Origin: Flavobacteriales bacterium
Lineage (GTDB): Bacteria > Bacteroidota > Bacteroidia > DT-38
Direction of reading: 5' to 3'
DNA: 46,559 bases
Assembly (NCBI GenBank): GCA_013214205.1
Contig: JABSPQ010000006.1
Location: forward strand, 1 to 46,559
Part shown: positions 2,107-24,142 of the stretch, in pieces
How the letters are laid out: each line of letters begins with the position of its first letter
How positions within the stretch are numbered: position 1 is the stretch's first letter
Notes under the pieces: generated by a model
What the model saw: only the letters and a program-made list of their open reading frames with translations
Database searches by the model: none
Told to the model about the DNA's origin: nothing
Program-made: the position numbers and the translations under genes

Positions 2107-4374
2107 ATGGAAACATCAAAAACTTGGCTCAAGCGTTTATCAACGCTAATCATATTATCCTTTTTCTCCTTCTCAATAGTTAACGCACAAACCAACACTT
2201 ATGCAGCCGTAACAGGCATATCTGGTAACGTAATAACATTAACAGTTGGTCATACTGGCGCTTTTGTAGTTGGCGAACAAGCCCTAATCATACAAATGAA
2301 AGGAGCTACCATTACCGAAACCAACGACGCATCTTACGGTACAATTACCTCCACCAATGGCGCTGGTAGCTATTGCTTTCTTTCAGTTACTGCGGTTAGC
2401 GCTAATTCGGTAACAGTAGATTTAAATGTAAGTGGGTTTGATGTAAACTCTAACGTTCAATTAATTTCTATAGCTCCCGATGATGGCTCTGGCAACTTTA
2501 CCGAAAACGGTGGCAACGAACCACCTAAATGGAATGGCTTTACGGGCGGTGTATATGTTATGAGTGTATGCGGAACCTATACACTAAATGCAAGCCTTTT
2601 AAGTAATGGTGGTGGTTTTAGAGGTGGACTCCCTAGTCTTTCTGTTAACTATTATGGAAGTATCGCTGAACAATGGGTAGCCAACGATCTTGAAGATTAC
2701 GACGTTGGAGCATTTAAGGGTGAAGGTGTTGCGAGTACATTTTGTAACGAGGGTGAACTTGGTGAAGGTGTTGCTGTTCCAAGACCAAGTTATAGTAATG
2801 TAGGATATTCATCTGGTGGATGGGCATTCCATTACAAGGACGGTAAAAGTACTGGCTTACCGGGAGACCTTTGCAATGTAAACGATGTAGGTACAGGAGC
2901 CCTTGCCAATGGCGGTGGCGGTGGCGGAGTAGTTAACGGCGGCGGTGGCGGCGGCGGAAACGGTGGCATTGGCGGACTAGGTGGGTGCGGTTGGGCTGCC
3001 AATTACGATCCACAATGCGCCATGGGTAGTGCCTGCGGAACATGTGTTAAAGAAGATCCTCAAGGCAAAGGCGGACTTCCAATTTCTACTACAGGCAATC
3101 AACTCTTTCTGGGAGGAGGTGGTGGTGGCGGTGGAACATCCACTTCCATAATGCCCGCTGATGGTCATGCTTATCACCATTCGCAAGGTGTTGGTGGTGG
3201 AGTAATTTACATTATTAGAGCCACTACAGTTGAAGGTAATGGTTATTCTATTGAAGCAAACGGAGAAGACAATTGGCCTAGAACCGATTGGCAAGGCAAT
3301 GGCGGTGGTGGAGCTGGCGGCAGTATTTATATAGATGCCCCTACAGCCAACAGTTTAAACTTATCTGCTAAAGGCGGATACGGTGGCGATGTAGAATTAA
3401 ACTCATATAACTGTTATTATCTTGATGGAGAAACTGGTCCTGGTGGAGGTGGTGGCGGAGGTGTTATTATTTCCCCTGCGAGCGGAACAACCAACGTTAC
3501 TGGTGGAGAATCAGGTGTGTATTGGGACGATATTACTTACGGATCTAAAGAAGATGGAACCAATTGGTGTGCAGAAGCTGGAAGTGATGGTGTAGTTATC
3601 ACCTCAAGCCCTTTCGAGGTAAAATGTTCAATATCCGAATTAAAAGAACTTAGTTGCGGAATCGGGTGTGGCACAGATAGAGCGGCTGGTCAGGATGGTG
3701 CCGATTTACAAGTACAGGTAATGCTGCCGCCTTGTTCAACTGCCGAACCGTTAACCGTAAATTGGTCAACAGGCTCAATGTCAAGCGGATTAATGCATGG
3801 TAGCACAGCAGATGAAAACAACTTATGCGCAGGAAATTACACCGTTACTGTTACCGATTTTAATGGTGTTTCAAACGTTTGTTCGTTCGAAGTAACTCCT
3901 ACGGAAATAGATACTGCTGTGTCTGTTGATGGAATAATACTCACCGCAAACGAATCAGGTGCAACCTATCAATGGTTAGATTGTAATGATAACGACTCCG
4001 AAATTGCCAGTGCAAACTCTCAAACTTATTTGCCAACAGCCAACGGAAACTATGCTGTAGAAATTACCAAAAATGGATGTGCAGATACTTCTGGTTGTCA
4101 TTATGTATTATCGGTAGGAGTTACAAGCAAAGTTGCTTCCAATAATCTTTTAATCTACCCCAACCCTACTAATGGTGATTTTACAGTAGATTTTGGAGCA
4201 ATTCAAAATGAAACTACCATCGTTGTAACAGATATGTTGGGCAAAAAGATTTCTGAGTCTACGCATCAAAATGTCGACAGCGCTCAATTGAATATTGAAG
4301 GAGCAAGTGGGACCTATTTTATCTCCATCCGCTCGAATAAATCAATGACAACACAACGCATTATAAAGAAATAA
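2107..4374 (+). CDS. Secreted glycine-rich T9SS cargo protein, paralog 1 (755 aa)
   Basis: This is a probable surface-exposed or released protein and the shortest member of the four-paralog family in this window. A signal peptide of about 27 residues ends VNAQTNTYA. Residues about 28-500 form the family module, with hexaglycine-type runs, FKGEGVASTFC, a cysteine-rich CAMGSACGTCVKE segment and GGGGAGGSIYID. Residues about 505-600 are one SprB-like repeat (NWSTG, GNYTVTVTD). An Ig-like segment with YQWLDCND follows. The last 75 or so residues are a T9SS type A sorting domain (IYPNPTNGDFTVDFG, ending IIKK). It lacks the long SprB array of its larger neighbours and may represent the minimal architecture. 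Adhesive or matrix roles are inferred; nothing indicates an enzyme. Confidence 0.85.
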   Translation: METSKTWLKRLSTLIILSFFSFSIVNAQTNTYAAVTGISGNVITLTVGHTGAFVVGEQALIIQMKGATITETNDASYGTITSTNGAGSYCFLSVTAVSANSVTVDLNVSGFDVNSNVQLISIAPDDGSGNFTENGGNEPPKWNGFTGGVYVMSVCGTYTLNASLLSNGGGFRGGLPSLSVNYYGSIAEQWVANDLEDYDVGAFKGEGVASTFCNEGELGEGVAVPRPSYSNVGYSSGGWAFHYKDGKSTGLPGDLCNVNDVGTGALANGGGGGGVVNGGGGGGGNGGIGGLGGCGWAANYDPQCAMGSACGTCVKEDPQGKGGLPISTTGNQLFLGGGGGGGGTSTSIMPADGHAYHHSQGVGGGVIYIIRATTVEGNGYSIEANGEDNWPRTDWQGNGGGGAGGSIYIDAPTANSLNLSAKGGYGGDVELNSYNCYYLDGETGPGGGGGGGVIISPASGTTNVTGGESGVYWDDITYGSKEDGTNWCAEAGSDGVVITSSPFEVKCSISELKELSCGIGCGTDRAAGQDGADLQVQVMLPPCSTAEPLTVNWSTGSMSSGLMHGSTADENNLCAGNYTVTVTDFNGVSNVCSFEVTPTEIDTAVSVDGIILTANESGATYQWLDCNDNDSEIASANSQTYLPTANGNYAVEITKNGCADTSGCHYVLSVGVTSKVASNNLLIYPNPTNGDFTVDFGAIQNETTIVVTDMLGKKISESTHQNVDSAQLNIEGASGTYFISIRSNKSMTTQRIIKK

Positions 4375-4532
4375 TTAAATCCATCATTATAACTGAAAAT
4401 CATTGTGTTACAAACTTATTTGTTACATTTACAGCCCTGTTAAAATTGTACTAAGGTGCAGGCTAGGTACATATAACAGGCATAAACGAACAAAAGACAT
4501 TTAGCTACTATTCAAATCAAACTACCGTTATT

Positions 4533-7500
4533 ATGAGACTAATTTATACTCCCATTATGCGCGTTTTATCAATTGCATTGGCATTGATAATTACTGTTAC
4601 AACAGTAAACGCACAAACCAATACTTACGCTTCTGTTCAAGTAATTGCAAGTACTGTTGTTACTTTAAGAGCAAGCCATTCGGGAGTTTTTGAGGTAGGC
4701 GAACAAGCCTTAATCATTCAAATGAAAGGCGCACTAATTAATGAAAAGAACGACGCAACCTACGGAGTTGTTGTAGACGATGGCGGTGCTGGGCAATTCG
4801 AATTTGCAACGGTACTAGCAGTAAACGGCGATGACATAACATTAGATCTCAATGTAGATAAGTTCAGCGTAAACGGCTATGTTCAACTAATTTCCATTGC
4901 AGCAGATGATGGTGCTGGTAACTACCAAGAAGATGGTTCTGGTTTTCCTCCTCCATGGAATGGCTATACAGGCGGTGTGTATGCCATGAGCGTGTGTAGC
5001 ACATTCGAATTAACAGGAGATTTAGGGATTCCAACGGGATTAACTGACACCGATAACTATGGTGGAGGATTTCGTGGTGGCCTTTCAAACGGTCTTGGAG
5101 ATTTTTATGGTTCTTTGGCTCAGCAATGGGTAGCAAACGATGTAAACGATTTTGAATTTGGTGCTTTTAAAGGCGAAGGTGTCGCAAGTACCTATTGCGA
5201 TCAAGCAGATTTGGGTGAAGGTGCGGCACTTGATATATTAACAGGTACATCATCAGGTGGTTGGGCATATAATTATTTGGATATTGTTGGAAACGGTAAT
5301 CCTGGTCAGCTTTGCAGTGTGCACGATATCGGTTCGGGAGCCATAGCCAATGGTGGTGGTTCGGGAACAATGGTAGATGGCGGCGGCGGCGGTGGCGGCA
5401 ATGGAGGCTCAGGTGGTGGCGGTGGTTGTGGCTGGGCAATCAATTTTGATGATGCTTGTGGTATGGGCAAGGCCTGTAATGGTTGTACGAAAGAAATGGT
5501 TAGAGGTGTTGGTGGATATGGAACACCTGCAACTCCAACGCTAGTTAAACTCGGTGGTGGCGGTGGTGCTGGCTGGACTGATCAAGCAGTTGATGCTGAT
5601 ATGGGAGGAGCTGCCTACTTTGGAGGCCAAGGATATGCAGGGGGGATTGCTGTTGTAATTAGTGCTGCAAATGTGGTAGGAAATGGAAACACAATTTATG
5701 CAGATGGACAGGGTGCATATGTTGAAGCAAACTGGCAAGCCAATGGTGGTGGTGGTGCAGGTGGCACCATATTAATTGATGCACTTACTGCAACAAATAT
5801 CAATTTGTCTGCCGTGGGAGGAGAAGGTGGTTCTGTTTTCTTTAATGAATATGGTTGCTTAAAGGAAAATGGCGAACTAGGTCCCGGGGGAGGTGGCGGT
5901 GGTGGTGTTGTTATGGCACCTGCTGGCGCAACTACAAACGTTTCAGGCGGAATTGCTGGTGTATATTACGATTTAGGAGCTGATCCCAAATATGGAAGTA
6001 AAGCCAATGGAACCAACTGGTGTGCAACGGATGGTGCCGATGGCATAATTTCAACTACTCCAGCAGTACTGGTGCAATGCGTAATTAGCGAAACCAAAGC
6101 TGCTGATTGTACCGTTGGTTGCGGAACTGGCGGCGCAGCAGGACAAGCTGGCGCAGATTTGGAAGTTCAAGCAGTTCTGCGAGCATGTTCCACTGCCGAA
6201 CCATTAACTGTAAATTGGTCTACCGGAACTTCTAGTACTGGTATTGCTAACGGAGCAACCACGGCAGACTACAATTTGTGTATTGGAAGCTATACCGTTA
6301 CCATTTCCGATGCAAACGGAGCTACAAACACATGCGAATTTGAAGTATTAACTCCCAACCAAATATTCGCAACAATTGTTGATGTGATAGAACCAACATG
6401 TAATGGAGATGTCAATGGCGAATTACTTGCCTCCGCTACTGGAGGAACCAGACCATTTACATGGAATTGGGGAACTGGAGCAACAACAGATAGCAGCTAC
6501 AAAAACATACCAACAGGTACTTACACGGTTACAGTTATCGACAGTAAAAATTGTACAAATACACAAGAAGTAACTGTAACCGAGCCAACTACTGTAACCA
6601 TTGTAGAAGACAGCTATGACGATGAAACTTGCATTGATTTTTGCGACGGTTTCATTAACCTTACTGGGTCGGGCGGTACTTATTTAGATATAGTTACGCC
6701 AATTACATATACTTATACTGGTAGCGAAGGCTTTGATATTATTGGTACCGACGCAATGAATGGTTTTGACGGAATCAGTGAGTTTGATATAGCTGTTACC
6801 GGCATGACTGTAACTAATGTAGGCCTTACAACATTAACACAGGTTTGTGTGGATTTAAACATGGCAAAATCTGAAGGAGTAGACATGTACTTAATAGCTC
6901 CAAATGGAGATGAATTAGGTTTATTTTTGGCCCCAGGCGGTGCTATGAACCAAGTATTCGACCACGTTTGTTTTGATGTAGGTGCAAGTAATATTTCAAA
7001 TAGCAATTCTCCGTTTTCGGGAAGTTGGTCGGCGGAAGAATTTGATTTTGACGACGCAGCCAATCCAATAATTGGTGCGCCAACCAATGGTGCTTGGACA
7101 CTTTGGTTTGATAATGGTGAAAGGAATGCCGCTACCTTAGATGGCTGGAGTATGACTTTTAATGATGTAATACCTGCCCCTACAGAGCCTGCTTTTGTTT
7201 GGGATGGCCCAGCTCCAATAGCTGGTTCTACGTCTGATGACATTTCTAACTTATGTGACGATACCTATACAGTTACAGCAACAGATGATTTAGGTTGTTC
7301 TGCAACTTTCGAAAGGGAGATTCTTATGTTACCAGATGTATATTCAGATATTAGGCAAGCTGCAAATCAATGTTTTTATGCTGGTACCAATAGTTTCAAC
7401 TTTTTTAGTGATGGCCTTAGTTCTGGTGCAGGATATTCTTTTTTATGGGAATTTGGAGGTGGAACCGGTGGTACCGTTACAGATGAAAACCCAACAGGAA

Positions 7501-10500
7501 TTTCTTATGCAGCTTGTGGAGATTACGAGATTGTATTAATGGTAACTGATAACAACACAGGTTGTAGTGTAACCGATACCATGCAATTTAATGTGAGTTG
7601 TGATATAACAGCAGTGCTAACACCTACGAATCCATTGTGCTTTGAACAATGTGATGGTTCAATTGATATGACAGTTAGCGGTGGAGCAACCCCTGGTTTA
7701 TATATATATCAATGGTCTGGCCCATCTGGATATTCAAGTATGACAGAGAACCCAACTGGGCTGTGCGATGGCACCTATGATGTTACCATTATCGACGCAG
7801 TATTTTGTATGGCGGTAGATCAAATTATTTTAACAAACCCAGCTGAACTTACAGTGGCAATGTCGGGCAACAACCCAACTTGCTTCTCCAATGTGGGCGA
7901 AGATGCAACAGCTACAGTAAGTGGAGGAACAGCTTCCTACTCTTACATTTGGATCGATGGACAAACAAATTCAACTGCTTCTAACCTAACAGATGGAACA
8001 TACACGGTAACTGTTACCGATGCAAACGGATGCACCGTAACTGGAGAGCAGGTAATCTCGGTTCCGTTAGAAGTTCTTGTAGCTACTGGTTCAACAAACT
8101 CCATATGTAACACTTCAAATGGTGTTGCAAGTGTAACTTCAGTAACCAATGCAGTTGGAGGATACACCGTATTGTGGGATGCCAACGCTGGAAACCAATC
8201 CACCGACAATGCAACTGGCTTGGCAGCCGGAACCTATCAGGTAACCGCTACAGATGGCAATTCTTGCACGGCAACTGGATTAACTTCAATAAGCGATAAT
8301 TCTACTTTAGCACTCGTAATCAATAATCCAATCGACGAAACTTGTTTAGCGTTAGGCAATGGAGGTTTCGACGTAACACCTAGTGGTGGAAACGTAGATT
8401 ATTCAATCTACATAAACGACGTTTTCTATAGTTCTGCAAATTCTACTGCAACTTTGGCTGTTTTCGCATTAAGCGCAGGGCTTCACACGGTAAAACTAGA
8501 AGACAATATTTCGGGCTGTGTCTTTACCGGCTCTCAAACTATTGGATCGGGTACCTCAGTAACTGCAGCTGCTAATACTGTAACCAACCCATTCTGCCCT
8601 GCTCCTTGTACAGAAGGTGAGGCCACTGTATCCGCTGACATCAACGGGCCATGGACATATATTTGGGACGATCCAGCAGCACAAACCACCCAAAACGCAA
8701 CAGCATTAGTTGAAGGCACCTATTGTGCAACAATAACAGACGCCTACGGATGTACAGCATCGGATTGTACAACACCTGTGGCAAATCCACTTATGGTATT
8801 TACAACATCCTCAACCAATGTTTCTTGTAATGGAGGTAACGATGGGTCGGTTGGCATTACATACATCTTTGGTGGAAACCCTGCCCCACCAGCATGGACT
8901 TATGATTGGAGTTCTGTTTCAGTTACAGGATTTGGAGCAACTGGACTATCTGCTAACGAATACACCGTAACCGTTACAGATGCATTAGGAGTTACTGTTT
9001 CGTATACCATGACAGTAACTGAACCACCCAGTGTAACAGCAACTATCTCCGACTTTTCAGACCCATTATGTAATGGATCTGCCGATGGCGACATAACGGT
9101 AACTTTTGGTGGCGGTACAGCTAATTACGATATAGCATGGGCAACTGGTGTTAATGCCAACCTTGCAGCAGGCTCAATCACCGAATCTAATTTATCAAAT
9201 GGCAACCACTGCGTAACTGTAACCGATGCAAATGCCTGTAGCGCCACAACTTGCCAAGTACTAACACAACCAAACGAACTTACAGCGGTTATTGCTCCTC
9301 TTTCAGATCCACTTTGTTTTGGTTCTAATGAAGGTACAGCAATGGTTACCATTGGTGGAGGCACATTAAACTACAATTTAGATTGGAATCAAGATGGTTC
9401 TGGCAACGACCAATTTAGTTATTCCACCACAACAAATACTGCAACCGATTTAGTTGCTGGTGCAATTGAAATCACAGTAACAGATGCCAATAATTGTATG
9501 GCCATTGCAACCAATACATTGGTAGATCCAAACAATCTCGATGTTGTAATTACCAACACCAACGATCCATCATGTAATGGAGTTTGCGACGGAGATGCAG
9601 AAGTAACTTTAGTTGGCGGCACAGCACCGTACGATTTTAATTGGGACGACGGTGGTGCAAATGATGTATTCAATATATTCACTACATCCAACACAGCATT
9701 CAGTTTATGTGGAGCCACGCTATACACGGCATCAGTTACCGATAACAATGGATGTGTAGCATTTACTTCGGTTACATTAACAGAACCTAACATGGTTGCT
9801 GTTGATGTAACAGGAAACAATACTGTTTGTAATGGCGATGTTAATGGTGACGCAACTGCTACACCAACTGGAGGGACAACAGTTTACACTTATTTATGGG
9901 ACGATTTATCTACCAATTCAACCATTTCCTCTTTAACAATAGGAACATACACTGTAACAGTTACAGATGGCAACGGATGTACTGCCGAAGATGAGGTTAC
10001 ACTAACCGAACCACTTGCAATCGTGGTAAGTTTAGGCTCTACCAACTCAACATGTTTGCAATCCGATGGAACCGCATTTATTACTTCCGTAGTCAATACG
10101 GTATCAACCTACACCACTCTATGGGATGATATGGTAACTACTGGCGATACATATGCAGGAATTCCATCAGGTTTTTACAGCGTAACGGTTACCGACATAA
10201 ATGGATGTAGCGCGAGTGCAGGAGCTGCAGTAAGCGACAATGCTGGCCCAATGTTGACTTTAAGCAATGTAATAGATGCAAGCTGTTCTGGCGCTTGCGA
10301 TGGCTCGGTTGATATTGTTATAAACGATGGCAGTCCTGTTTATCAAATTAGTGTTACACCTCCTCCATGTGGCACTACCAATCCAATTTTTATAGGCATT
10401 AATTCAGGAGAAAATTTAACAATTAGCGGATTGGCCGAGGGAACACATTCAATTACTATTGTAGATGCAACTGGTTGTATGGTTTCAGGCAACACTACCA

Positions 10501-10985
10501 TAGGAGTAACTACTGCATTAGATAATTCTGTTACCGTTACCAATGGTAATTTAACAGCCAATTTATCAGGTGCAAGCTATCAATGGATTGATTGCGATAA
10601 CGGCAATACACCTGTTGTAAATGCAACGAATCAGAGTTTTGCACCACCATCAAACGGAAACTATGCTGTAGAACTTATGCTAGGCAATTGCACAAATACA
10701 TCTATCTGTAATTACTTAAGTACAGTTGGCATTGCAAGTAAATCAATTTCAAACAATGTTGTTATCTACCCCAACCCTACTAGCGGTGCATTTACCATTG
10801 ATTTAGGAAATACCCAATCAAAAACAACTGTGGTGATTACAGATATTTTAGGAAATAAAATCAGTGAGTCTACCCACCAAAACAGCGATAAAATTGATCT
10901 ACAATTAAATGCCGAAAGTGGTACTTACTTAATCTCCATCAAATCAGATGATGGAGTATCTACACAGAGATTGGTGAAGGAATAA
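4533..10985 (+). CDS. Giant SprB-repeat T9SS adhesin-like protein, paralog 2 (2150 aa)
   Basis: This is a very large secreted protein, probably a surface adhesin or filament. It has a signal peptide ending VNAQTNTYA; ATG at 4557 is an alternative start. The conserved glycine- and cysteine-containing module covers residues about 30-520, followed by a SprB-like unit. Then come a canonical SprB repeat (about 612-690), a proprotein-convertase P-domain (about 740-880, with APNGDELGLFL and GAWTLWFDNGE), a PKD domain (about 935-1020) and roughly 12 further SprB repeats to about 1990. Most repeats show the pattern C-x-G-x2-DG, GG, Y-x-W, GTYTVTVTD, GC. An Ig-like YQWIDCD segment and a T9SS type A sorting domain (IYPNPTSGAFTIDLG) close the protein. 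Its last 80 residues closely resemble those of paralog 1. SprB repeats are known from the flavobacterial gliding adhesin; a gliding role here is inference. Confidence 0.9.
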   Translation: MRLIYTPIMRVLSIALALIITVTTVNAQTNTYASVQVIASTVVTLRASHSGVFEVGEQALIIQMKGALINEKNDATYGVVVDDGGAGQFEFATVLAVNGDDITLDLNVDKFSVNGYVQLISIAADDGAGNYQEDGSGFPPPWNGYTGGVYAMSVCSTFELTGDLGIPTGLTDTDNYGGGFRGGLSNGLGDFYGSLAQQWVANDVNDFEFGAFKGEGVASTYCDQADLGEGAALDILTGTSSGGWAYNYLDIVGNGNPGQLCSVHDIGSGAIANGGGSGTMVDGGGGGGGNGGSGGGGGCGWAINFDDACGMGKACNGCTKEMVRGVGGYGTPATPTLVKLGGGGGAGWTDQAVDADMGGAAYFGGQGYAGGIAVVISAANVVGNGNTIYADGQGAYVEANWQANGGGGAGGTILIDALTATNINLSAVGGEGGSVFFNEYGCLKENGELGPGGGGGGGVVMAPAGATTNVSGGIAGVYYDLGADPKYGSKANGTNWCATDGADGIISTTPAVLVQCVISETKAADCTVGCGTGGAAGQAGADLEVQAVLRACSTAEPLTVNWSTGTSSTGIANGATTADYNLCIGSYTVTISDANGATNTCEFEVLTPNQIFATIVDVIEPTCNGDVNGELLASATGGTRPFTWNWGTGATTDSSYKNIPTGTYTVTVIDSKNCTNTQEVTVTEPTTVTIVEDSYDDETCIDFCDGFINLTGSGGTYLDIVTPITYTYTGSEGFDIIGTDAMNGFDGISEFDIAVTGMTVTNVGLTTLTQVCVDLNMAKSEGVDMYLIAPNGDELGLFLAPGGAMNQVFDHVCFDVGASNISNSNSPFSGSWSAEEFDFDDAANPIIGAPTNGAWTLWFDNGERNAATLDGWSMTFNDVIPAPTEPAFVWDGPAPIAGSTSDDISNLCDDTYTVTATDDLGCSATFEREILMLPDVYSDIRQAANQCFYAGTNSFNFFSDGLSSGAGYSFLWEFGGGTGGTVTDENPTGISYAACGDYEIVLMVTDNNTGCSVTDTMQFNVSCDITAVLTPTNPLCFEQCDGSIDMTVSGGATPGLYIYQWSGPSGYSSMTENPTGLCDGTYDVTIIDAVFCMAVDQIILTNPAELTVAMSGNNPTCFSNVGEDATATVSGGTASYSYIWIDGQTNSTASNLTDGTYTVTVTDANGCTVTGEQVISVPLEVLVATGSTNSICNTSNGVASVTSVTNAVGGYTVLWDANAGNQSTDNATGLAAGTYQVTATDGNSCTATGLTSISDNSTLALVINNPIDETCLALGNGGFDVTPSGGNVDYSIYINDVFYSSANSTATLAVFALSAGLHTVKLEDNISGCVFTGSQTIGSGTSVTAAANTVTNPFCPAPCTEGEATVSADINGPWTYIWDDPAAQTTQNATALVEGTYCATITDAYGCTASDCTTPVANPLMVFTTSSTNVSCNGGNDGSVGITYIFGGNPAPPAWTYDWSSVSVTGFGATGLSANEYTVTVTDALGVTVSYTMTVTEPPSVTATISDFSDPLCNGSADGDITVTFGGGTANYDIAWATGVNANLAAGSITESNLSNGNHCVTVTDANACSATTCQVLTQPNELTAVIAPLSDPLCFGSNEGTAMVTIGGGTLNYNLDWNQDGSGNDQFSYSTTTNTATDLVAGAIEITVTDANNCMAIATNTLVDPNNLDVVITNTNDPSCNGVCDGDAEVTLVGGTAPYDFNWDDGGANDVFNIFTTSNTAFSLCGATLYTASVTDNNGCVAFTSVTLTEPNMVAVDVTGNNTVCNGDVNGDATATPTGGTTVYTYLWDDLSTNSTISSLTIGTYTVTVTDGNGCTAEDEVTLTEPLAIVVSLGSTNSTCLQSDGTAFITSVVNTVSTYTTLWDDMVTTGDTYAGIPSGFYSVTVTDINGCSASAGAAVSDNAGPMLTLSNVIDASCSGACDGSVDIVINDGSPVYQISVTPPPCGTTNPIFIGINSGENLTISGLAEGTHSITIVDATGCMVSGNTTIGVTTALDNSVTVTNGNLTANLSGASYQWIDCDNGNTPVVNATNQSFAPPSNGNYAVELMLGNCTNTSICNYLSTVGIASKSISNNVVIYPNPTSGAFTIDLGNTQSKTTVVITDILGNKISESTHQNSDKIDLQLNAESGTYLISIKSDDGVSTQRLVKE

Positions 10986-14100: not shown

Positions 14101-15765
14101 GATATAACCGCCACGTTAGTAGCCACAGACCCACTTTGTTTTGAACAGTGCGATGGTTCTATAGCTATGACAGCTGCCGACGGAGAAGGATCCGGTATGT
14201 TTGCATATGCATGGGATGGACAAAATACTGGTTTCTCAAGTAATTCTGAAGACCCTACTGGCTTGTGCGCCGATACTTATGATATAACGGTAACCGATGC
14301 AACATTCTGTTCAGCGATTTTCCAAACTGTAGTATCAGATCCAACTGTATTAACGGCATCGTATGTTACTACCGACGAAACTTGTAATACAAATAACGAT
14401 GGTACAGCATCACTTTCTTTTAGTGGTGGCACCGAAAATTATTCAGTTAATTGGGATACAGAAGGAGTTCAAAGCGGTATTACAGCAGCAACTGGGATCA
14501 GTAACATATCTGGCTTAGGTGGTACTGCTGGTGGACAAGCTTACTCTGTTACCCTTACAGATGCAAATGGTTGTAGCCTCACATTTACAGATGATGTGTT
14601 TGAACCTACTTTAGTTACTGTTGCAATAACAGACTTTAACGATCCAACATGTTTTGGAAATTCCAATGGTTCTATAGAAGCTACTTTTAGTGGTGGGATT
14701 TCTAATTACACTGTAGGTTGGCCTTCAACAAATGTTAATAATCTAGCGGCTGGAACATATACAGAAAATAGTTTATCCGATGGAACCTATACCATTACTG
14801 TAACGGACGCTAATGGCTGTTCGGAAACAGCTACGCGAACATTAACAGATCCAAGTCAACTAGATGTTGCTGCAACAGGAACAGATGCACTTTGTTATGG
14901 AGTTAGCACAGGTACACTTTCTTCCGTTGCTTCGGGAGGAACAGGAGCTTACATCTATGTTTGGACTAACTCTGGAGGGGCTTATAACACAGGTGCTTCA
15001 GTAACATCTGTACCTGCAGACAGTTACACCGTAGTGGTAACAGATGCAAACGCTTGTACTGATTCTGATGAATATTTAATAACGGAACCAACAGAATTAA
15101 TATCAAATCCTTTTGGAATGGACGCAACTTGTAATGCCGCTACAGATGGTACTGCTATACAGGGTACATCAGGCGGAACACCGGTTTACACATATGCTTG
15201 GAGCAATGGAGACAATGGTACAGCGGCTTTCGCTTTAGGAATTGGAACTTATACCGTAACTGTAACTGATAATAATAATTGTACTGCTAGCGGAAGTACG
15301 ACAGTTACGGAACCAACAGAATTAACAGTATCTGTATCAACTACGCCAGATGCTGGTGTTGGTGGAACAGCTACAGTAACTGCTTCGGGAGGTACTACCA
15401 GCTATAGTTATGTTTGGAATAACCTAGAATCAACTGCCGCAATTACAGACTTAAACGCTGCAAATTATTGCGTTACGGTAACAGATGCCAACGCTTGTAC
15501 AGTCTCCGCATGTGAAGATGTAGACTTTACGGTATCTATTAGAGAAACCAATAAGGACGATTTAATTAGAGTAAACAGAAATACCATAACCGTTGTTTCG
15601 AAAGGTGGAGATTTAGAAATCTATTCACTTACTGGTCAAAGGGTACATCAATCTACAGTTAACGCAGGTGAGTACTCTATAAATGTTGGTAAAGGAATTT
15701 ATCTTGTAAGATTCAGAACCAACGAAAAACAAATCACCAAAAAGGTATACATCGCAAACGAATGA
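11101..15765 (+). CDS. SprB-repeat T9SS adhesin-like protein, paralog 3 (1554 aa)
   Basis: The signal peptide ends VKSQTNTYA and is followed by the same glycine-rich module as paralogs 1 and 2 (about 28-500). The order is then SprB-like unit, SprB repeat (about 595-670), P-domain (about 707-860, ending DGVLDSWSITINDI), PKD domain (about 910-1000) and six SprB repeats to about 1474. The segment from the first SprB repeat through the PKD domain to the unit starting DPLCFEQCDGS matches paralog 2 in order and wording. The ending differs: the Ig-like YQW segment is absent, and the last 65 residues (ITVVSKGGDLEIYSLTGQ, VYIANE) are a divergent T9SS sorting domain without the YPNP motif. It lies 72 bases upstream of the sigma factor gene. 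Confidence 0.88.
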   Translation: MKHLNSSIVSILAIALLIVFSFTTVKSQTNTYASVASVSGKVVSLNAGHSGTFIVGNQALIIQMKGASISETNNSDYGAVTAYNNAGAYEIATIEAINGDDITLCINVDAYDVNSNVQLISIAADDGSGNYQEDGSNTPPAWDGYTGGVYAMKVCGTYTLNGNLTSSGGGFRGGIPNGTGTYYGSLTQQWAATDVNDNDFSGFKGEGIASTFCNTTDLGEGVNLNVLTGTSSGGWAYNYVSINMGTPGTLCSVNDLGSGAIANGGGAGTNSLGGGAGGGNGGVGGDGGCGWASNYDPICAMGSACVGCVKEDVQGLGGLATGGTGSILHLGGGGGGPYTFNAQITEGDGYKSQGTAGGVIYIIVAEIVEGNGNTITSNGEDNTFLAEWIANGGGGAGGTIYIESTSANNLTLSAVGGDGGDVYFEDYGCFDLDGETGPGGGGGGGVIIAPSGVTTNVAGGLAGVYWDETQYGSRAAGTNWCADNGAAGVVATSSLSIAVPKCLITEIKAFECGDLCGIGGAADQTGADLEVQVFLSLCSTAPLSVDWSNGSSASGIADFGTDAENNLCVGTHTVTVTDANALTNTCEFIVVAPDSPVVSIDAVVDASCAGGNDGEIDGSATGGTSPYTYNWGSLGTTASVTVVTAGTYTLTVTDDNSCTNTASATVTEPSGITIVEDNYINETCDGFCDGAIDLSVSGGVFNDVVTPTTFTDNVGGTIVNLSTTDFTISVSGITQALVDEATIVSVCMDLSIVPRDKIESVELQLTNPCGSTIILKSATNPAGTNFTDVCFTSDAAANITTGTSPFTGDWLPEGELLDAVGGTLTGCDPNGNWLLSMVNSEMNDGVLDSWSITINDIAPNSATPSLIWEGSSAFSSTADDIASLCTGTYTVTASDDDGCSITYEREITTVPNVYAQITVVADQCFYSGTNSFNFNSEGGSTGAGYTFLWDFDGGTGGNTSAENPTGVTYAACGDYTVTLTVTDNSTGCVVSDTQDFTVSCDITATLVATDPLCFEQCDGSIAMTAADGEGSGMFAYAWDGQNTGFSSNSEDPTGLCADTYDITVTDATFCSAIFQTVVSDPTVLTASYVTTDETCNTNNDGTASLSFSGGTENYSVNWDTEGVQSGITAATGISNISGLGGTAGGQAYSVTLTDANGCSLTFTDDVFEPTLVTVAITDFNDPTCFGNSNGSIEATFSGGISNYTVGWPSTNVNNLAAGTYTENSLSDGTYTITVTDANGCSETATRTLTDPSQLDVAATGTDALCYGVSTGTLSSVASGGTGAYIYVWTNSGGAYNTGASVTSVPADSYTVVVTDANACTDSDEYLITEPTELISNPFGMDATCNAATDGTAIQGTSGGTPVYTYAWSNGDNGTAAFALGIGTYTVTVTDNNNCTASGSTTVTEPTELTVSVSTTPDAGVGGTATVTASGGTTSYSYVWNNLESTAAITDLNAANYCVTVTDANACTVSACEDVDFTVSIRETNKDDLIRVNRNTITVVSKGGDLEIYSLTGQRVHQSTVNAGEYSINVGKGIYLVRFRTNEKQITKKVYIANE

Positions 15766-15802
15766 TTGATAGTTTATAATTAATCCTCTGTTCTTCATCT
15801 TT

Positions 15803-15810
15803 TACTTTTG
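15803..15810 (+). promoter_or_regulatory. Putative -7 promoter element for the sigma/anti-sigma genes
   Basis: TACTTTTG matches the Bacteroidota primary-sigma -7 consensus TAnnTTTG exactly and lies 27 bases before the GTG start of the sigma gene. No convincing TTTG element is seen 19-21 bases further upstream, so the call is moderate. If real, the regulatory genes have their own promoter apart from paralog 3. Confidence 0.45.
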
Positions 15811-15837
15811 TTACATTAGCCATAATAAATGCGATAG

Positions 15838-16458
15838 GTGAAAATTAACAATGATAACATAGGCAAACTGCTGAAAGAAGGTGAAAATGAAGCCTATCAT
15901 TATGTTTATCGGCAGTACTACCCTTACTTATGCGAACATGCCAACAGAATTTTAAAAGATTTTGATTTGGCAAAAGACATTTCCCAAAAGACCATTCTGA
16001 TCCTTTGGGAAAAGAAAGAAAACGTTCAGGAAAACAGCAATATTCTGGGTTATTTACTCAAAGCGGTTCACAATAACTCTTTGAATTACATTAGAGATGA
16101 GGGCCGAAAGCAAAAAAGATCCGAGGATGCCTACATTCCCAAAGACGATATTTACATCAAGGATTATATTGGCGAACAGGAACTTCAAACTAAAATCGAT
16201 GCAATTCTTCAAGAAGAAAGCGAACAACGACAAACCATTTTCAAGCTAAATAGATTCGAAGGCTATACGGCCAAAGAAATTAGCGAAAAACTAAACGTGC
16301 CAGCTAAAACAGTTGAATACAATATTGCTCAAGTAATGAAAAAAATGCACGAGCAACTAAAAGATTACCTCCACCTCTTAATCATTGGAATATATTTTCT
16401 TGCGGAAATTAAGGAAGACCTAGGGTATTGGTGTATAATACATGAAACGGTAAGTTAA
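15838..16458 (+). CDS. ECF-type RNA polymerase sigma factor (FecI-like)
   Basis: An extracytoplasmic-function sigma factor that would direct RNA polymerase to a small regulon when released by the FecR protein encoded next. Region 2 is visible at about residues 18-90 (YRQYYPYLCEHANRIL, DISQKTILILWEK) and region 4 at about 130-180 (RFEGYTAKEISEKLNVPAKT). Start is GTG at 15838; the ATG just upstream is followed at once by a stop. An unusual hydrophobic tail of roughly 28 residues (LHLLIIGIYFLAEI onward) follows region 4; C-terminal extensions of this sort are known in some Bacteroidota FecI-like factors. Its stop overlaps the fecR start as TAATG, implying translational coupling. Placement inside the adhesin cluster suggests these genes are targets. 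Confidence 0.93.
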   Translation: MKINNDNIGKLLKEGENEAYHYVYRQYYPYLCEHANRILKDFDLAKDISQKTILILWEKKENVQENSNILGYLLKAVHNNSLNYIRDEGRKQKRSEDAYIPKDDIYIKDYIGEQELQTKIDAILQEESEQRQTIFKLNRFEGYTAKEISEKLNVPAKTVEYNIAQVMKKMHEQLKDYLHLLIIGIYFLAEIKEDLGYWCIIHETVS

Positions 16459-17453
16459 TGGAACTAGATAATGCACATATTGAACTAATTCAGAAGTCGC
16501 TTTTGGGCGAAACTTCCGAAAAAGAAAATCAACAATTAGCCGATTTAGTCGCTTATAATGAGGGATTGCGCGCATACATTTCCGAAATGACCAAATTACA
16601 CACCCTCACGGAAAGAAGAAAAGAGCTCTTAACAAACCTTGATGTTGAAGCGGATTATCAGTCCTTTTTAAAGAACATTAGCAGTAAAACAGACCCTAAA
16701 GTCGTTCCTATGTTCCCGCTTAAAATAATTTTAAGGGTTGCTGCAGTGCTTTTAATCGGATTGGGTATTGGATATCAGATCTTGTATAACCAAGAAGTAT
16801 CAGCCCCTCTTTTGGCGGTAGATACTTATAATTCGGAACAAATTGAAAAAAGCTTAGCAGACAACAGCAATGTTATTCTTAATGTGAATTCGAAATTGGA
16901 ATACCCCGAAACTTTTGATGGAAAAACGAGACGTGTTAACTTAGAAGGAGAAGCCTATTTTGATATTGAACCAGATAGCACCAAACCTTTTATTGTGTAT
17001 GTGGGCAATGGTAGAATAGAAGTAAAAGGCACCAAGTTTAATGTTAATGCCAACAATCCAGATTCTATTGTGGTAACCGTTAAAGAAGGAAGCGTAATGT
17101 TTTATTCTTTCAAAAAATTGGATGGCCAGCTTTTAACTGCCAATCAGAAAGGTACTTTAATGGCAGATGCAGAAATTGTGGAAGACGACGCCAACGACAA
17201 CATCAATTATTTGTTTTGGTATGATGGTGTGTTAAGGTTTAAAGATACCGAGCTTAAAGATGTAATTGCCACCCTAAAAACCGAATGGAACCTAAACATA
17301 ACAATAGCCGACGAAGTAATTAACCAGTGTAGAGTTACGGCAAGTTTTAGCAATGTGGAGATAGATGAAATCCTCAAAATGCTTGAAATGACACTAGATA
17401 TTAGAATTGAGAAAAATGACGGAGCCATGATAATTTATGGCAATGCTTGCTGA
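16458..17453 (+). CDS. FecR-family anti-sigma factor
   Basis: An inner-membrane regulator expected to hold the ECF sigma factor through its cytoplasmic N-terminus and receive an envelope signal through its periplasmic part. Residues 1-87 are cytoplasmic, about 88-108 form the single membrane helix (IILRVAAVLLIGLGIG), about 118-215 are the FecR domain (RRVNLEGEAYFDIE, GTKFNVNA, VTVKEGSV), and about 255-327 match DUF4974 (LFWYDGVLRFKDTELKDV), the usual C-terminal domain of Bacteroidota FecR proteins. At 331 aa it has normal length. It overlaps the sigma gene by one base and is followed 55 bases later by the STN-domain protein, its likely signalling partner. The overall call is secure. Confidence 0.93.
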   Translation: MELDNAHIELIQKSLLGETSEKENQQLADLVAYNEGLRAYISEMTKLHTLTERRKELLTNLDVEADYQSFLKNISSKTDPKVVPMFPLKIILRVAAVLLIGLGIGYQILYNQEVSAPLLAVDTYNSEQIEKSLADNSNVILNVNSKLEYPETFDGKTRRVNLEGEAYFDIEPDSTKPFIVYVGNGRIEVKGTKFNVNANNPDSIVVTVKEGSVMFYSFKKLDGQLLTANQKGTLMADAEIVEDDANDNINYLFWYDGVLRFKDTELKDVIATLKTEWNLNITIADEVINQCRVTASFSNVEIDEILKMLEMTLDIRIEKNDGAMIIYGNAC

Positions 17454-17461
17454 ACATATTA

Positions 17462-17470: not shown

Positions 17471-17508
17471 AATTTTTACTGTTATTAGTAATATGTAACC
17501 TAACAACT

Positions 17509-18960: not shown

Positions 18961-18991
18961 TCTAATAATGAAATAGTTTAGGAACAAGCAG

Positions 18992-19000
18992 TTAAACGGT
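18992..19000 (+). promoter_or_regulatory. Possible shared regulatory motif upstream of paralog 4
   Basis: TTAAACGGT lies 28 bases before the ATG at 19028 and is identical to the motif at 17462-17470. It is followed by GTAATAAAT and then TATAACC. No clear TAnnTTTG element lies between it and the start, which would fit an alternative sigma factor but does not prove one. Confidence 0.25.
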
Positions 19001-19027
19001 GTAATAAATATATAACCACAAATAATA

Positions 19028-22000
19028 ATGATGAAATTATCAAACTCCAATATCGCAAAAAGCGTAATTCTAGTTCTCATCACTCTTTGCTCTATTACCT
19101 CAACGCAAGCGAAAAATACTTATGCGTCCGTTTCATCCGTGGCAGGTTCCGTGGTTACCCTTAACGCCGGTCATTCTGGAAGCTTTGTAGTTGGAGAAGA
19201 AGCCATGATAATGCAAATGAAAGGTGCATCTATCATGGAAACCAACGGAGCAACTTATGGAGCTGTAACCGATTATAATGGTGCTGGTACATATCAAATT
19301 GCAACCGTATTGGCGGTTTCTCCCAACGACATTACCCTCGATATTAATGTTGATGCCTACGATGTAAATGCGAACGTTCAATTAATTTCTATCCCTGCTG
19401 CCGATGGCTCTGGAGACTATACAGAAGATGGCAGCAACACACCTCCTGACTGGAATGGGCATACAGGTGGAGTTTATGTAATAAACATTTGTGGTACTTA
19501 CAATTTAACTGGCAATTTACAAACTGAAGGCGGTGGCTTTAGAGGCGGATTAACCAACGAAACTGGAGACTTTTATGGCGCACTACCCCAGCAGTGGGTT
19601 GCAAGCGATGTAGAAGATTTTGCATTTGGTGCATTCAAAGGAGAAGGTATCGCAAGTACTTTTTGTAAAGTAACCGATTTAGGCGAAGGGCTCCCACTCG
19701 ATCTTTCAAGCGGAACTTCATCGGGTGGATGGGCATACAATTACGCCGATATTCAAAATAATAAAGCCAGCACGCTTTGTAGTGTTCACGATATTGGCTC
19801 AGGTTCAATTGCCAATGGCGGTGGAGCAGGAACTCAAGTAGATGGTGGTGGCGCTGGTGGTGGTAACGGAGGTGCTGGTGGTGCTGGTGGCTGCGGATGG
19901 AATATAAATTACGTATCTGCTTGCGGCATGGGAAATGCCTGTGTTGGATGCGTTAAAGAAGATGTGCAAGGTATTGGCGGGCTTGCGATGTCTACTACAG
20001 GAAATCCTCTATTTCTTGGTGGTGGCGGCGGTGCTGGCTATACAGACCTACAAGTAGCGCTAGACGCGGGTGGATTTTATTACAAAAGCCAAGGCCGAGC
20101 AGGTGGGGTAATATATATAATAAAAGCAGCTCATATTGAAGGAAATGGAAACACAATAGCAGCCAACGGCGGCAACAACCAATTTGTAGTTTCTTGGCAA
20201 GCCAATGGTGGTGGTGGCGCTGGTGGAACTATATTAATAGATGCTCCATCTGTTACCAACTTAAGTTTATCTGCAACAGGCGGCGAAGGTGGTGGCACTT
20301 ATTTTAGCGATTATGATTGCTATGCAGACGATGGAGAACTCGGCCCCGGTGGTGGTGGAGGCGGTGGAATCATCATCGCTCCCAGCGGAGCTACTACAAA
20401 TGTTGCTGGTGGTGCAAATGGTGTTTACTGGGACGATACAAAGTATGGCAGCGAAGCAGCTGGTACAGCATGGTGTGCCGAAACTGGTGCCAATGGGGTT
20501 GTTACAACACCTCCTACAGCAACAACTTCATGTACAATTAATTTAGAAACTCCTGTTTCTTGTCTTGGTTCAGATGGTGCACTGGAAGTTAAAGTTTCTC
20601 TTTCTAACTGTTCTGCCGCAGAACCTATGTCTGTGTTATGGTCTCAAAGCGGAAACGTAACTGGAAACTTAATGAATAATGATTCTGTTTCAGAAATCAA
20701 CCTTAACGCTGGCACATACACTGTTACTGTAACAGATGCAGATGCAGAAACTGGCACATGTGAATACACCTTGTCACCAGCAACTTTAATGGAAATAAGT
20801 TTTAATGATGTTACACATCCTTCCTGTGTTGGCAGTTCAGATGGACAAATTTCGGCCTCCGTTTCTGGTGGAGTTTCGCCTTATACTTATGCTTTTAGCG
20901 CTGGAAGTACCGATGCAATTGCAACTGATCTTTCTGCAGAAATACATACAGTAACCGTTACCGACAACAGTGGTTGTACATCAACTAACGAAACATCTTT
21001 AATTGATCCAGCTCCAATTGTTTTGTCGAGCATAGCTACCGATGAATCAGCTTGTGGAAATGAAGATGGAAGCATTAACGTTACGTGGGAAAGCGGAGGA
21101 ACTTATAATGCTGTAGTTACCACAGTGATGTACAATGGAGCAGGTGGAACTATTAATAAAAATTCAACTACTAATTTCGACTTATTGGTATCTGGAATTT
21201 CCCAAGCATTAACCGATCAAAATACGGTAGCTGAAGTTTGTATCGACATTACTACCACGCCCAAAGATAGGATGAGTAGTCTGGCACTTGTGCTAAATAC
21301 ACCATGCGGCGGACCACAATCTATCACTTTAAAATCGGCCAGTCTCCCAGAAGGAACAAGTTTCAACGATATCTGCTTTAGTGCAGGCGCAGTTGCAAAC
21401 ATTACAACAGCAACCGATCCTTTTATTGGTAATTGGCTTCCTGAAGGTGGAAATTTAGACGAAATAGATGGACCTTTAACAGGTTGTGATCCTAATGGAA
21501 TTTGGAGCTTGAGCATTGATAATGGCCAAATGAACGAAGATGGAACTCTCGGCAGTTGGTCCATCACATTAAATGATGTCGTTCCTAGCACTGGCCAACC
21601 AACTTACCTATGGAGCCATGATGGTTCAACTTCCGAAGATGTTACTGGCTTAATAGGGTCACCAGGATTCATTACTTATACGGTAACCGCAACCGACAAC
21701 AATGGATGTACCACTACAGAAGAAGCAGGTCTCTGGTGCATTGCAGCGCCTACTTGTAGTATTGTGATAGATTCTGAACCAGCCTGCGATCCAAATTGTG
21801 ATGGAAAGGCTACGATTACAGTTGATTCAGGAGACTTTCCAGACTTCACCATTGATTGGGGAAATGGCGAAACAGCCATGTTAAATTATATTGGATTAAC
21901 ACACCAAGCAACAATGCTTTGTGTTGGCGAACACACGGTTTCAGTAACGGATAATAACGGAATGGTTGGTACTTGTTCGGTTACGATGACTTGTCCTCTA

Positions 22001-24142
22001 GTAGAAATTTGCAACAACGGAGTTGACGACGACAACGATGGCGATACTGATTTAAACGATGCTGATTGTTCTTGTGTTGCTACAACCCTATTTGAATCAA
22101 CTGTTGGTGTAGAGGAAGAAGGACAAACGGCTATAAATGCTGGTACTTGGGTAATTCCATGTTCGGGAGGCCTTAGGCTTGAAGCAATTCCTGATACAAG
22201 TAATGTTGACTACCAATGGTACAAAAACGGCATTGCGCTAGTTGGTGAAGGTGGTATGAGTGTTACCGAGGGCAATAGTTATTTTTTAAACGTAGTTGGC
22301 AATGGATATGGTACAGGTACTTACACTTTTAGAATTGATGGAGCAATCGACGGAACTTCATGCGACGAATTCATACTAACAAGCGACGGACCGATACTTG
22401 CATTCACTTACAACTACGAATCCACCTGTGGTGATGCAGATGGCGCTATTAACATTGTTACTTCAGGAGGGAATGCACCTTATTCATTCTTTTGGAGCGA
22501 TGGAGCAACCGATGAAGATCGTTCGGGGTTGTCTGCAGCAATGTATACCATAACTGCTACTGATGCGAATATGTGCAGCTCAGTTCTATCAATTAATATC
22601 TCTTGCTCGGCAGCACCACCAACTTGCTCGATAGTTATCGATCAAGAACCATTGTGTTTTGGTAGTAATGAAGGAGAGGCAACCGTTACCGTAAGCGGAG
22701 TAGAACCCAGCTTTAACATTGATTGGTCGAATGGTGGGTCTTCCACAATTATATCTGACGGAGGAACAAATCAGCAAGTCAATTTATCCGACGGAACTTA
22801 TTCGGTTACCGTTACAGACAACCTTGGTTTAACGTCAACGTGCAGCGTTGTAATTACACAACCATCTGAACTTACAGCAAGCATTACGAATTCTATAAAC
22901 CCGCTTTGTTTTAAAGATTCAAATGGAGAAGCGACAGTAACATTTGCAGGAGGTATAGCCCCATACGATGTTGAATGGAGTTCAGGAAGTAGCAGTATGA
23001 ATATAACGGGCCCAACAAACACGGAAACTGGTTTATCAGAAGTATCTACAGGTGTTACCATTACAGATAACAATGGATGTGTTTCAGTTGATGAAGTTGA
23101 TATTATTGATCCTATGGAAATAACGGCGAGTGTTTCAGGCAACATTCCTCCTTGTGGCAACTCAGATGGCACTACAACTGTTGTGGGCAGTGGCGGAACA
23201 GTGGCAGGAGACTATACTTATCTGTGGGATGATAATGCTGCACAAACAACAGCTACCGCAACTGGTTTATATGCTTCACTTGGTGGAAGAACATACTGCT
23301 TTACTATTACGGATGATAATGGATGTACAGCAAGTGATTGCTTTCTTTCACCTCCTTCGCCGCATTTTCCCGTAATACCCCAAGTAATAAACCAAACAGG
23401 CGCAACATTAAGTGCCTATGTTACAGCAAACAGTTACCAGTGGCTTACTTGCGATAATAACACTTATATGGAAATTGATGGCGAAACCAATCAATCTTAT
23501 ACGCCTATTTTTGAAGGTAGCTATGCAATTGAGTTTACTAACGGCGAATGCCTTGATACTACTGATTGTGAGATGATTTGCATTTATTCTATTGCCGGTA
23601 ATGTATTTGCTGATGATGTATTGATAGAGTCAGGAACCGTTGATTTATACGAATCAAGCGACTCTACAATTATTGTAAGAACTGCAACTGTATCAAATGG
23701 AGTGTTTTCAATCACTGGAATATGTGGCGGAGATTATGTGCTTAAAGGAACTGCAGGCGGAACAAACACTAGCTTGTATACGCCAACGTACTACTATGGA
23801 ACCCTTGAGTTTCAAGAGGCCATATCCATTAATTTAGTTGGCAACGCTTCTGGGTTCGAAATTGATTTAATTTCTTTGGTTGGCATTAATGATCGCAACA
23901 TAGACGGTACAAATGTTCATGTTTATCCGAATCCAACCAATGGAGAATTTACTGTTAGATTCGACGACATACAAAATGAAACGACCATTACCGTTACCGA
24001 TCTAGCAGGCAAAAAAATAATTGAATCCAATTATAAAAACATCGATAAAATTCAAATGCGACTCAACGATGAGAATGGTACTTATTTCATCAACATCAAA
24101 TCAGATGCCGGTGTATCAACCAAAATCTTAATTAAGAACTAA
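19028..24142 (+). CDS. Giant multi-domain T9SS adhesin-like protein, paralog 4 (1704 aa)
   Basis: A large secreted protein with signal peptide ending STQAKNTYA; ATG codons at 19028 and 19031 are both possible starts. The family glycine-rich module spans about 30-495. Next are a SprB repeat (about 585-665), a P-domain (about 700-855, ending LGSWSITLNDV), more SprB-like units, and an acidic NNGVDDDNDGDTDLND segment (about 994-1014) resembling calcium-binding motifs. A further domain with DYQWYKNG and GTGTYTFRID, additional SprB repeats and a YQWLTCDN Ig-like segment follow. A carboxypeptidase-regulatory-like or SdrB-like domain (about 1518-1615, IAGNVFADDVLI) and a T9SS type A sorting domain (VYPNPTNGEFTVRFD) end the protein. 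Unlike paralogs 2 and 3 it has no PKD domain after the P-domain. It follows the regulatory genes and may be their closest target. Confidence 0.88.
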   Translation: MMKLSNSNIAKSVILVLITLCSITSTQAKNTYASVSSVAGSVVTLNAGHSGSFVVGEEAMIMQMKGASIMETNGATYGAVTDYNGAGTYQIATVLAVSPNDITLDINVDAYDVNANVQLISIPAADGSGDYTEDGSNTPPDWNGHTGGVYVINICGTYNLTGNLQTEGGGFRGGLTNETGDFYGALPQQWVASDVEDFAFGAFKGEGIASTFCKVTDLGEGLPLDLSSGTSSGGWAYNYADIQNNKASTLCSVHDIGSGSIANGGGAGTQVDGGGAGGGNGGAGGAGGCGWNINYVSACGMGNACVGCVKEDVQGIGGLAMSTTGNPLFLGGGGGAGYTDLQVALDAGGFYYKSQGRAGGVIYIIKAAHIEGNGNTIAANGGNNQFVVSWQANGGGGAGGTILIDAPSVTNLSLSATGGEGGGTYFSDYDCYADDGELGPGGGGGGGIIIAPSGATTNVAGGANGVYWDDTKYGSEAAGTAWCAETGANGVVTTPPTATTSCTINLETPVSCLGSDGALEVKVSLSNCSAAEPMSVLWSQSGNVTGNLMNNDSVSEINLNAGTYTVTVTDADAETGTCEYTLSPATLMEISFNDVTHPSCVGSSDGQISASVSGGVSPYTYAFSAGSTDAIATDLSAEIHTVTVTDNSGCTSTNETSLIDPAPIVLSSIATDESACGNEDGSINVTWESGGTYNAVVTTVMYNGAGGTINKNSTTNFDLLVSGISQALTDQNTVAEVCIDITTTPKDRMSSLALVLNTPCGGPQSITLKSASLPEGTSFNDICFSAGAVANITTATDPFIGNWLPEGGNLDEIDGPLTGCDPNGIWSLSIDNGQMNEDGTLGSWSITLNDVVPSTGQPTYLWSHDGSTSEDVTGLIGSPGFITYTVTATDNNGCTTTEEAGLWCIAAPTCSIVIDSEPACDPNCDGKATITVDSGDFPDFTIDWGNGETAMLNYIGLTHQATMLCVGEHTVSVTDNNGMVGTCSVTMTCPLVEICNNGVDDDNDGDTDLNDADCSCVATTLFESTVGVEEEGQTAINAGTWVIPCSGGLRLEAIPDTSNVDYQWYKNGIALVGEGGMSVTEGNSYFLNVVGNGYGTGTYTFRIDGAIDGTSCDEFILTSDGPILAFTYNYESTCGDADGAINIVTSGGNAPYSFFWSDGATDEDRSGLSAAMYTITATDANMCSSVLSINISCSAAPPTCSIVIDQEPLCFGSNEGEATVTVSGVEPSFNIDWSNGGSSTIISDGGTNQQVNLSDGTYSVTVTDNLGLTSTCSVVITQPSELTASITNSINPLCFKDSNGEATVTFAGGIAPYDVEWSSGSSSMNITGPTNTETGLSEVSTGVTITDNNGCVSVDEVDIIDPMEITASVSGNIPPCGNSDGTTTVVGSGGTVAGDYTYLWDDNAAQTTATATGLYASLGGRTYCFTITDDNGCTASDCFLSPPSPHFPVIPQVINQTGATLSAYVTANSYQWLTCDNNTYMEIDGETNQSYTPIFEGSYAIEFTNGECLDTTDCEMICIYSIAGNVFADDVLIESGTVDLYESSDSTIIVRTATVSNGVFSITGICGGDYVLKGTAGGTNTSLYTPTYYYGTLEFQEAISINLVGNASGFEIDLISLVGINDRNIDGTNVHVYPNPTNGEFTVRFDDIQNETTITVTDLAGKKIIESNYKNIDKIQMRLNDENGTYFINIKSDAGVSTKILIKN

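Follow-up and report, generated by a model that had tools for sequence, protein, structure and literature searches.

Cell-surface signalling is known mainly from TonB-dependent importers. FecI/FecR/FecA and FoxI/FoxR/FoxA each combine, at one locus, an ECF sigma factor, a FecR protein with a membrane span and a FecR_C domain, and an outer-membrane protein with an N-terminal STN domain. In FecI/FecR/FecA this last protein is a TonB-dependent 22-stranded barrel with a plug, and the output is the importer. STN domains bind the C-terminal domain of FecR-type anti-sigma factors, which govern the sigma factor, as described for FoxA/FoxR and PupB/PupR (PMC9249621, PMC11637429). In Bacteroidota sets of the same sigma and FecR families, the STN partner is a SusC/TonB receptor followed by SusD, or an STN-CarboxypepD_reg protein of about 550–900 aa, and a T9SS cargo is almost never the next gene. 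In PUMA3 (VreA/VreR/VreI) of Pseudomonas aeruginosa, a non-canonical STN protein governs adjoining secretion and secreted-protein genes (PMC2729926). In Porphyromonas gingivalis, the surface protein PorA, which has a T9SS tail, feeds back through PorXY on the ECF sigma factor SigP (PMC7712824). PorP-like barrels bind their own type B T9SS cargo (PMC9143113).

The locus described here carries a cassette of an ECF sigma factor, a FecR protein, an STN-barrel protein and one T9SS cargo. It shares its first three components with the Fec and Fox systems, and its sigma/FecR families and gene order with the Bacteroidota sets. Unlike that of FecA, its barrel is predicted to be 8-stranded and plug-less, with no transporter architecture, and its presumed output gene encodes a T9SS cargo instead of an importer. 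PUMA3 differs in that VreA is a periplasmic STN protein with a TolA/TonB-like domain and no barrel, in a single system connected with two-partner/type II secretion. PorA–PorXY–SigP is a two-component route to T9SS machinery genes, with no FecR or STN-barrel, and is not a repeated cassette. SprF/PorP, like the cassette, pair an outer-membrane barrel with its own T9SS cargo, but have type B tails, no STN domain and no sigma/anti-sigma pair. No description of such a cassette was found in the open-access papers searched.

The locus and its Gly-rich paralogs

The window (the whole 46,559-nt stretch of DNA analysed, from a Flavobacteriales bacterium) had been predicted to contain four giant Gly-rich T9SS paralogs bracketing their own sigma/FecR/STN-barrel switch, which would regulate one or more of them in response to an envelope signal. 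The coordinates of these reading frames proved exact and all lie on the + strand (Table 1). The N-terminal module was common to the four paralogs, those of the other three being 58–68% identical to that of the 1704-aa protein (alignment). Por_Secre_tail sorting domains were found in all four; the 1554-aa tail, at 20.3 bits, missed the Pfam cut-off of 27 but passed that of TIGR04183 (30.8 of 23), and the other three were over the Pfam cut-off. The SprB, P and PKD modules held in part: SprB repeats were matched in three paralogs but not in the 755-aa protein, PKD was found in the 1554-aa protein and below cut-off in the 2150-aa protein (22.2 of 27 bits), and the P-domain was over cut-off in the 1554-aa protein and below it in the 1704-aa protein. 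"Giant" does not fit the 755-aa protein, and the bracketing is one of position and nothing beyond. Signal-peptide-like N-termini were seen on the T9SS type A cargoes, which are predicted to be secreted by the T9SS.

Table 1 Features of the locus, with positions in the window
Feature	Position (bp)	Strand	Content or basis
755-aa paralog	2107–4374	+	Gly-rich module, T9SS tail; ORF check, Pfam
2150-aa paralog	4533–10985	+	Gly-rich module, SprB repeats, weak PKD, T9SS tail
1554-aa paralog	11101–15765	+	Gly-rich module, SprB repeats, PKD, P-domain, divergent T9SS tail
TTTGTTACATTAGC box, candidate cassette promoter	15807–15820	+	Motif search; box definition from PMC9723704
ECF sigma factor, Bacteroidota FecI-like, close to TIGR02985, hydrophobic C-terminal tail	15838–16458	+	Pfam/NCBIfam; alignment of nine sigma factors
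FecR-type anti-sigma/sigma regulator	16458–17453	+	N-terminal cytoplasmic part, membrane span, periplasmic FecR and FecR_C
STN-barrel transducer, 483 aa	17509–18960	+	Pfam; AF2 model; Foldseek
GGTGTAATAAATATA element, candidate cargo promoter or leader element	18998–19012	+	Exact-match genome search
1704-aa T9SS type A cargo, the cassette's own cargo	19028–24142	+	ORF, Pfam, BLAST, domain profile
Gly-rich AgmC_N-like N-terminal module of 1704-aa cargo	19112–20518	+	Alignment; NF047640, 82.2 bits
Acidic DDDxDGD segment of 1704-aa cargo (aa 993–1102)	22004–22333	+	BLAST
Cassette-specific ~98-aa domain of 1704-aa cargo, directly N-terminal to T9SS tail	23579–23875	+	Alignment; distribution; co-divergence with triad
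T9SS type A sorting domain of 1704-aa cargo	23921–24133	+	Pfam; tail profile
Strong hairpin stretch 3′ of 1704-aa cargo	24140–24225	+	−32 kcal/mol, z −3.3; probable transcript end
Gly-rich modules of the four paralogs	2188–3615, 4614–6068, 11182–12591, 19112–20518	+	Genome search

The spacing of the genes was −1 bp between sigma and FecR, 55 bp between FecR and STN, and 67 bp between STN and cargo. A strong hairpin of the kind seen 3′ of the 1704-aa gene was not found 5′ of the sigma gene. A ~79-bp palindromic element at 24238–24316 (z −3.1), with seven partial matches elsewhere in the genome, one of them directly upstream of the sigma gene of the cassette on contig C98, looks like a REP-type dispersed repeat. 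An anti-phage defence reading of the region was dropped, PADLOC having given no match.

The Gly-rich module is homologous to AgmC_N, the N-terminal family of the adventurous gliding motility protein AgmC (NF047640), with a match of about 195 residues (3.5e-23). It is not a member of this family, since its scores of 82.2 and 66 bits fall short of the 275-bit cut-off. Fourteen matches of the module were found in the own genome, four of them in the window and ten on nine other contigs encoding the module or parts of it. It was present in 49 of 295 genomes of the class and almost absent from the one congener (one partial match). A search for the module beside ECF/FecR/STN genes found the linkage in the window only: no FecR gene lay near it at 20 loci outside the order (over about 9 kb, or as far as the contig reached), nor at the nine other loci of the own genome, several of which are on short or cut contigs. 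An AF2 model of the module from ten paralogs had a mean pLDDT of 41 and was discarded.

Recurrence of a four-gene cassette

Eight places with FecR were found in the own genome (5.1 Mb, 464 contigs). Five of them, the window included, had the order sigma–FecR–STN-barrel–one T9SS cargo (contigs C421, C98, C221, C152 and C294), and the congener (G001) carried four more, giving nine cassettes in two species. Clear ortholog pairs, cargo included, were C152 with G001 C25 and C294 with G001 C126. A 4-bp overlap of the STN and cargo genes in C152 and G001 C25 favours a single operon. Cargo types varied: LRR (C98, with a homolog on G001 C108), beta-propeller (C221), SprB-type (C294) and others. The window's was the only Gly-rich cargo among the nine, the other eight being free of the module. 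A T9SS cargo was the next gene in all nine triads, although that of G001 C108 runs off its contig before the tail and is counted by homology to that of C98; eight of the nine could be read to the tail, the C98 cargo being cut within the sorting tail. As judged from sequence, then, the conserved unit is sigma–FecR–STN/8-stranded barrel–one downstream T9SS cargo and not the four-paralog array. The depth of conservation is shallow, because just two genomes, both from one genus, are available for the order.

A sixth FecR place (C123, L023, 2092–11459) had a more distant sigma–FecR–STN set. Behind it come a 394-aa protein and two T9SS-type proteins rich in SprB, and the cassette's pre-tail domain described below is absent. 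At a seventh (C111, L024, 4001–6406), the STN protein behind sigma–FecR matched both CarboxypepD_reg and ankyrin repeats, which is unusual for a transducer.

A survey of the best FecR relatives in the 295 genomes of the class, combined with STN matches, gave 53 loci outside the order. Nearly all were sigma–FecR–STN sets, mostly with STN proteins of 550–900 aa (STN plus CarboxypepD_reg, some of them TonB receptors). A T9SS tail was detected in the next gene at one of the 53, weakly, with a tail profile that was built from the own order and may miss some distant tails. None of 80 named Bacteroidota loci had such a tail in the next genes, and many showed a SusC/SusD-like size pattern. Outside the order, T9SS cargoes thus appear almost never to follow sigma–FecR–STN sets.

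Alignment of the cargoes revealed a ~98-aa domain directly before the T9SS tail in all eight that were readable to the tail. A profile of this domain, run on both genomes, recovered the eight cassette cargoes at about 112–134 bits and three further strong matches (G000 C101, G001 C433 and G001 C2), which were fragmentary or at contig edges, with no visible cassette. The domain is rare among cargoes, since at least 150 T9SS tails occur in the own genome (308 candidates, of which the best 150 were scored). In the window it was matched in the 1704-aa protein and in none of the 755-, 2150- and 1554-aa paralogs. Its divergence followed that of the triad, with Mantel r of 0.73 for sigma, 0.79 for FecR, 0.69 for STN and 0.62 for the barrel (p = 0.0006, 0.0002, 0.0008 and 0.003, respectively). 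For the adjoining T9SS tail, a short and noisy control (n = 7), r against the triad was 0.22–0.27. The domain tracks the triad and the tail does not, indicating that domain and triad have moved together. This co-divergence is explained by joint inheritance and does not prove contact. Matches to solved structures were weak (best SdrD and NOMO2), and one member had a sub-threshold CarboxypepD_reg match. Contigs C101 (L061) and C98 (L055) start at the same point within near-identical C-termini of cassette cargoes; it seems that the end of the C98 cargo is present twice and that this repeat interrupted the assembly.

By BLAST, residues 2–899 of the 1704-aa protein were 55% identical to residues 1–904 of the 1554-aa paralog, residues 993–1102 (acidic DDDxDGD) were 56% identical to the N-terminus of the cassette cargo on G001 C27, and residues 1454–1702 were 39% identical to that of C221. 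On these matches, the protein looks like a fusion of the neighbour's Gly-rich/SprB half to a cassette cargo, with the junction probably directly before the DDDxDGD segment. That a cassette cargo gained the neighbour's half is the simplest reading of the direction of exchange. The fusion would explain how a cassette comes to lie inside a Gly-rich array without the array being a regulon. The three upstream paralogs form a local family of Gly-rich proteins, and the N-terminal half of the 1704-aa cargo probably came from one of them; they are probably neighbours of the switch rather than part of it.

The triad and its upstream sequences

The window sigma factor was over the Pfam cut-offs (Sigma70_r2, 33 bits; Sigma70_r4_2, 41 bits) and just under that of TIGR02985 (123.9 against 126.4). 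FecR matched FecR (65.5 bits) and FecR_C (49.8 bits; Pfam), with a single hydrophobic membrane span near residues 82–105. All nine cassette sigma factors end in a hydrophobic tail of about 15–20 residues (e.g. ILILILINVLLFSPKFI), as if membrane-attached; in the window the tail is followed by an extra polar extension that reaches into fecR.

The STN domain of the window transducer scored 37.2 bits (2.6e-9, Pfam), and a match to OMP_b-brl_2 was weak. An AF2 model from nine sequences had an STN fold at aa ~48–121 and an 8-stranded barrel at aa ~250–483, mostly confident, connected by a disordered Pro/Glu/Lys-rich linker of ~110 residues (aa ~134–246); the overall pLDDT was only 64.5 because of the signal peptide, linker and loops. 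Foldseek matched the barrel to OmpA, NspA and OmpW (TM to target about 0.6–0.72). Neither Plug, TonB_dep_Rec or any other TonB-receptor domain nor PorP_SprF was found by Pfam in the 483-aa protein. SusC-type features (CarboxypepD_reg, Plug and TonB barrel, about 1000 aa, SusD next) were not found, the next gene being the T9SS cargo. An STN domain and an intact sigma–FecR pair were kept with all nine barrels, and mean identity across cassettes dropped from 45% (sigma) to 22% (barrel), the fastest-diverging part. The triad is very likely to be a working set of sigma factor, anti-sigma factor and transducer.

A box of the TTTGTTACATTAGC type, roughly TAnnTTTAGC, was found 22–32 bp 5′ of the sigma gene in eight of the nine cassettes. 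Its log-likelihood in the motif search was 89.2, against 77.9 ± 1.8 (maximum 80.4) in 12 shuffled sets. The housekeeping sigma-A of Bacteroidota (Flavobacterium) uses a −7 box of TAnnTTTG (PMC9723704), which the pre-sigma box resembles; it is a candidate cassette promoter. Autoregulation of the triad is not indicated, because the box looks sigma-A-like.

Before the cargo, GGTGTAWTAAATAYA had four exact matches in the 5.1-Mb own genome, all upstream of T9SS genes. Three (window 18998–19012, C98 and C221) precede the cassette cargoes from which the pattern was defined; the fourth (C89), an independent match, precedes a T9SS gene outside the cassettes. This gene has an apparent frameshift near its start (L109, 1501–1700). 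Exact matches only were used, since at two mismatches the element was about as common as its reversed control. The 15-bp GGTGTAATAAATATA is the sole exact match in the window, and none within three mismatches precedes the 755-, 2150- or 1554-aa paralog. Related sequences occur before the cargo genes of G001 C108 and C27. The element is present in about five of the nine cassettes and absent where the STN–cargo spacing is tight or overlapping, so this candidate ECF promoter may instead be a leader.

Inspection by eye of six sites upstream of the cargo did not yield an ECF −35/−10 pair. De novo motif discovery in the regions ahead of the nine cargo genes scored 86.6, barely above the shuffle maximum of 86.0, and a scan for sigma-70-type promoters and terminators gave counts at chance level. 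A promoter common to all four paralogs was looked for and none was found. TTTGTTACATT, before both the sigma gene and the 2150-aa gene, was reached by two of 100 shuffles; it was found post hoc and was not used as evidence.

Proposed function and alternatives

The observation behind the original prediction is confirmed. Its interpretation is partly supported, narrowed to one of the four paralogs: the link between a sigma/FecR/STN-barrel set and a large T9SS surface protein holds and recurs in all nine cassettes, but neither the Gly-rich module nor the four-paralog array finds support as the regulated unit. The explanation that we prefer, with reasonable confidence, is a repeated cassette of ECF sigma factor, FecR, outer-membrane STN-barrel and dedicated T9SS cargo, here the 1704-aa protein. 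It is best read as a plug-less variant of cell-surface signalling that would be dedicated to the adjacent cargo. Control of that cargo by the triad is likely.

By analogy with FecA/FecR and FoxA/FoxR, the STN domain would contact FecR_C in the periplasm. Changes at the outer loops of the barrel would, via the linker and STN, alter FecR and free the sigma factor, which would then drive the cargo gene and possibly the whole operon. Since the 8-stranded fold lacks a plug and is unlike any transporter, signalling would not be tied to TonB-driven import. Most speculatively, as the pre-tail domain is private to cassettes, the signal might be the cargo of the same cassette once it is at the surface, whether on arrival, docked or bound to a ligand. 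This domain might then touch the barrel, and the cell might thereby adjust the production of one surface protein to its display. Contact between domain and barrel is doubtful. Slightly more doubtful still is the general form of the idea, a plug-less class in which STN-tailed 8-stranded barrels monitor the display of dedicated cargoes through the pre-tail domain, with several insulated loops per cell. A priori, an external ligand is at least as likely a signal as the cargo.

A less probable reading, though the strongest of the alternatives, is that the barrel responds to a ligand from outside, or to a state of the envelope, that has nothing to do with the cargo; the cargo would then be no more than the output gene. 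Known cell-surface signalling works in this way, with siderophores and other carriers (PMC9249621), and the barrel diverges fastest; alone, however, this reading leaves the cassette-private cargo domain unexplained.

The STN-barrel could by analogy be mainly a docking or anchoring platform, like PorP/SprF with type B cargo, docking being sensed secondarily by sigma/FecR. One dedicated barrel is co-inherited with each cargo, and PorP-like barrels do bind type B cargo (PMC9143113). This is nevertheless unlikely, as the cassette tails are type A (in P. gingivalis anchored through A-LPS), the fold is OmpA-like with no PorP/SprF family match in Pfam, and every barrel keeps its STN domain and sigma–FecR pair.

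Equally improbable is the regulon first proposed, a self-regulated adhesin array of all four Gly-rich paralogs under the central sigma factor. The paralogs are contiguous with the triad on the same strand, no + strand terminator was predicted in the intergenic gaps, and TTTGTTACATT could be cited post hoc. Against this, the cargo element and the cassette domain belong to the 1704-aa gene only, the Gly-rich module is unlinked to FecR at the other loci tested, and the other cassettes have single cargoes of other types. Control of any one of the three upstream paralogs by the triad is no more probable.

A coincidental neighbourhood is hardly credible: the genome has at least 150 T9SS tails and sigma–FecR–STN sets are common in Bacteroidota, but a T9SS cargo is next in nine of nine cassette triads, against one of 53 and none of 80 loci elsewhere.

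If the dedicated-cassette reading is true, a small non-transporting barrel and one secreted protein would extend cell-surface signalling to secretion and surface composition. Binding could be tested directly with the private pre-tail domain, and the cassette would offer a way into the question of how T9SS-rich bacteria select from more than 100 surface proteins.
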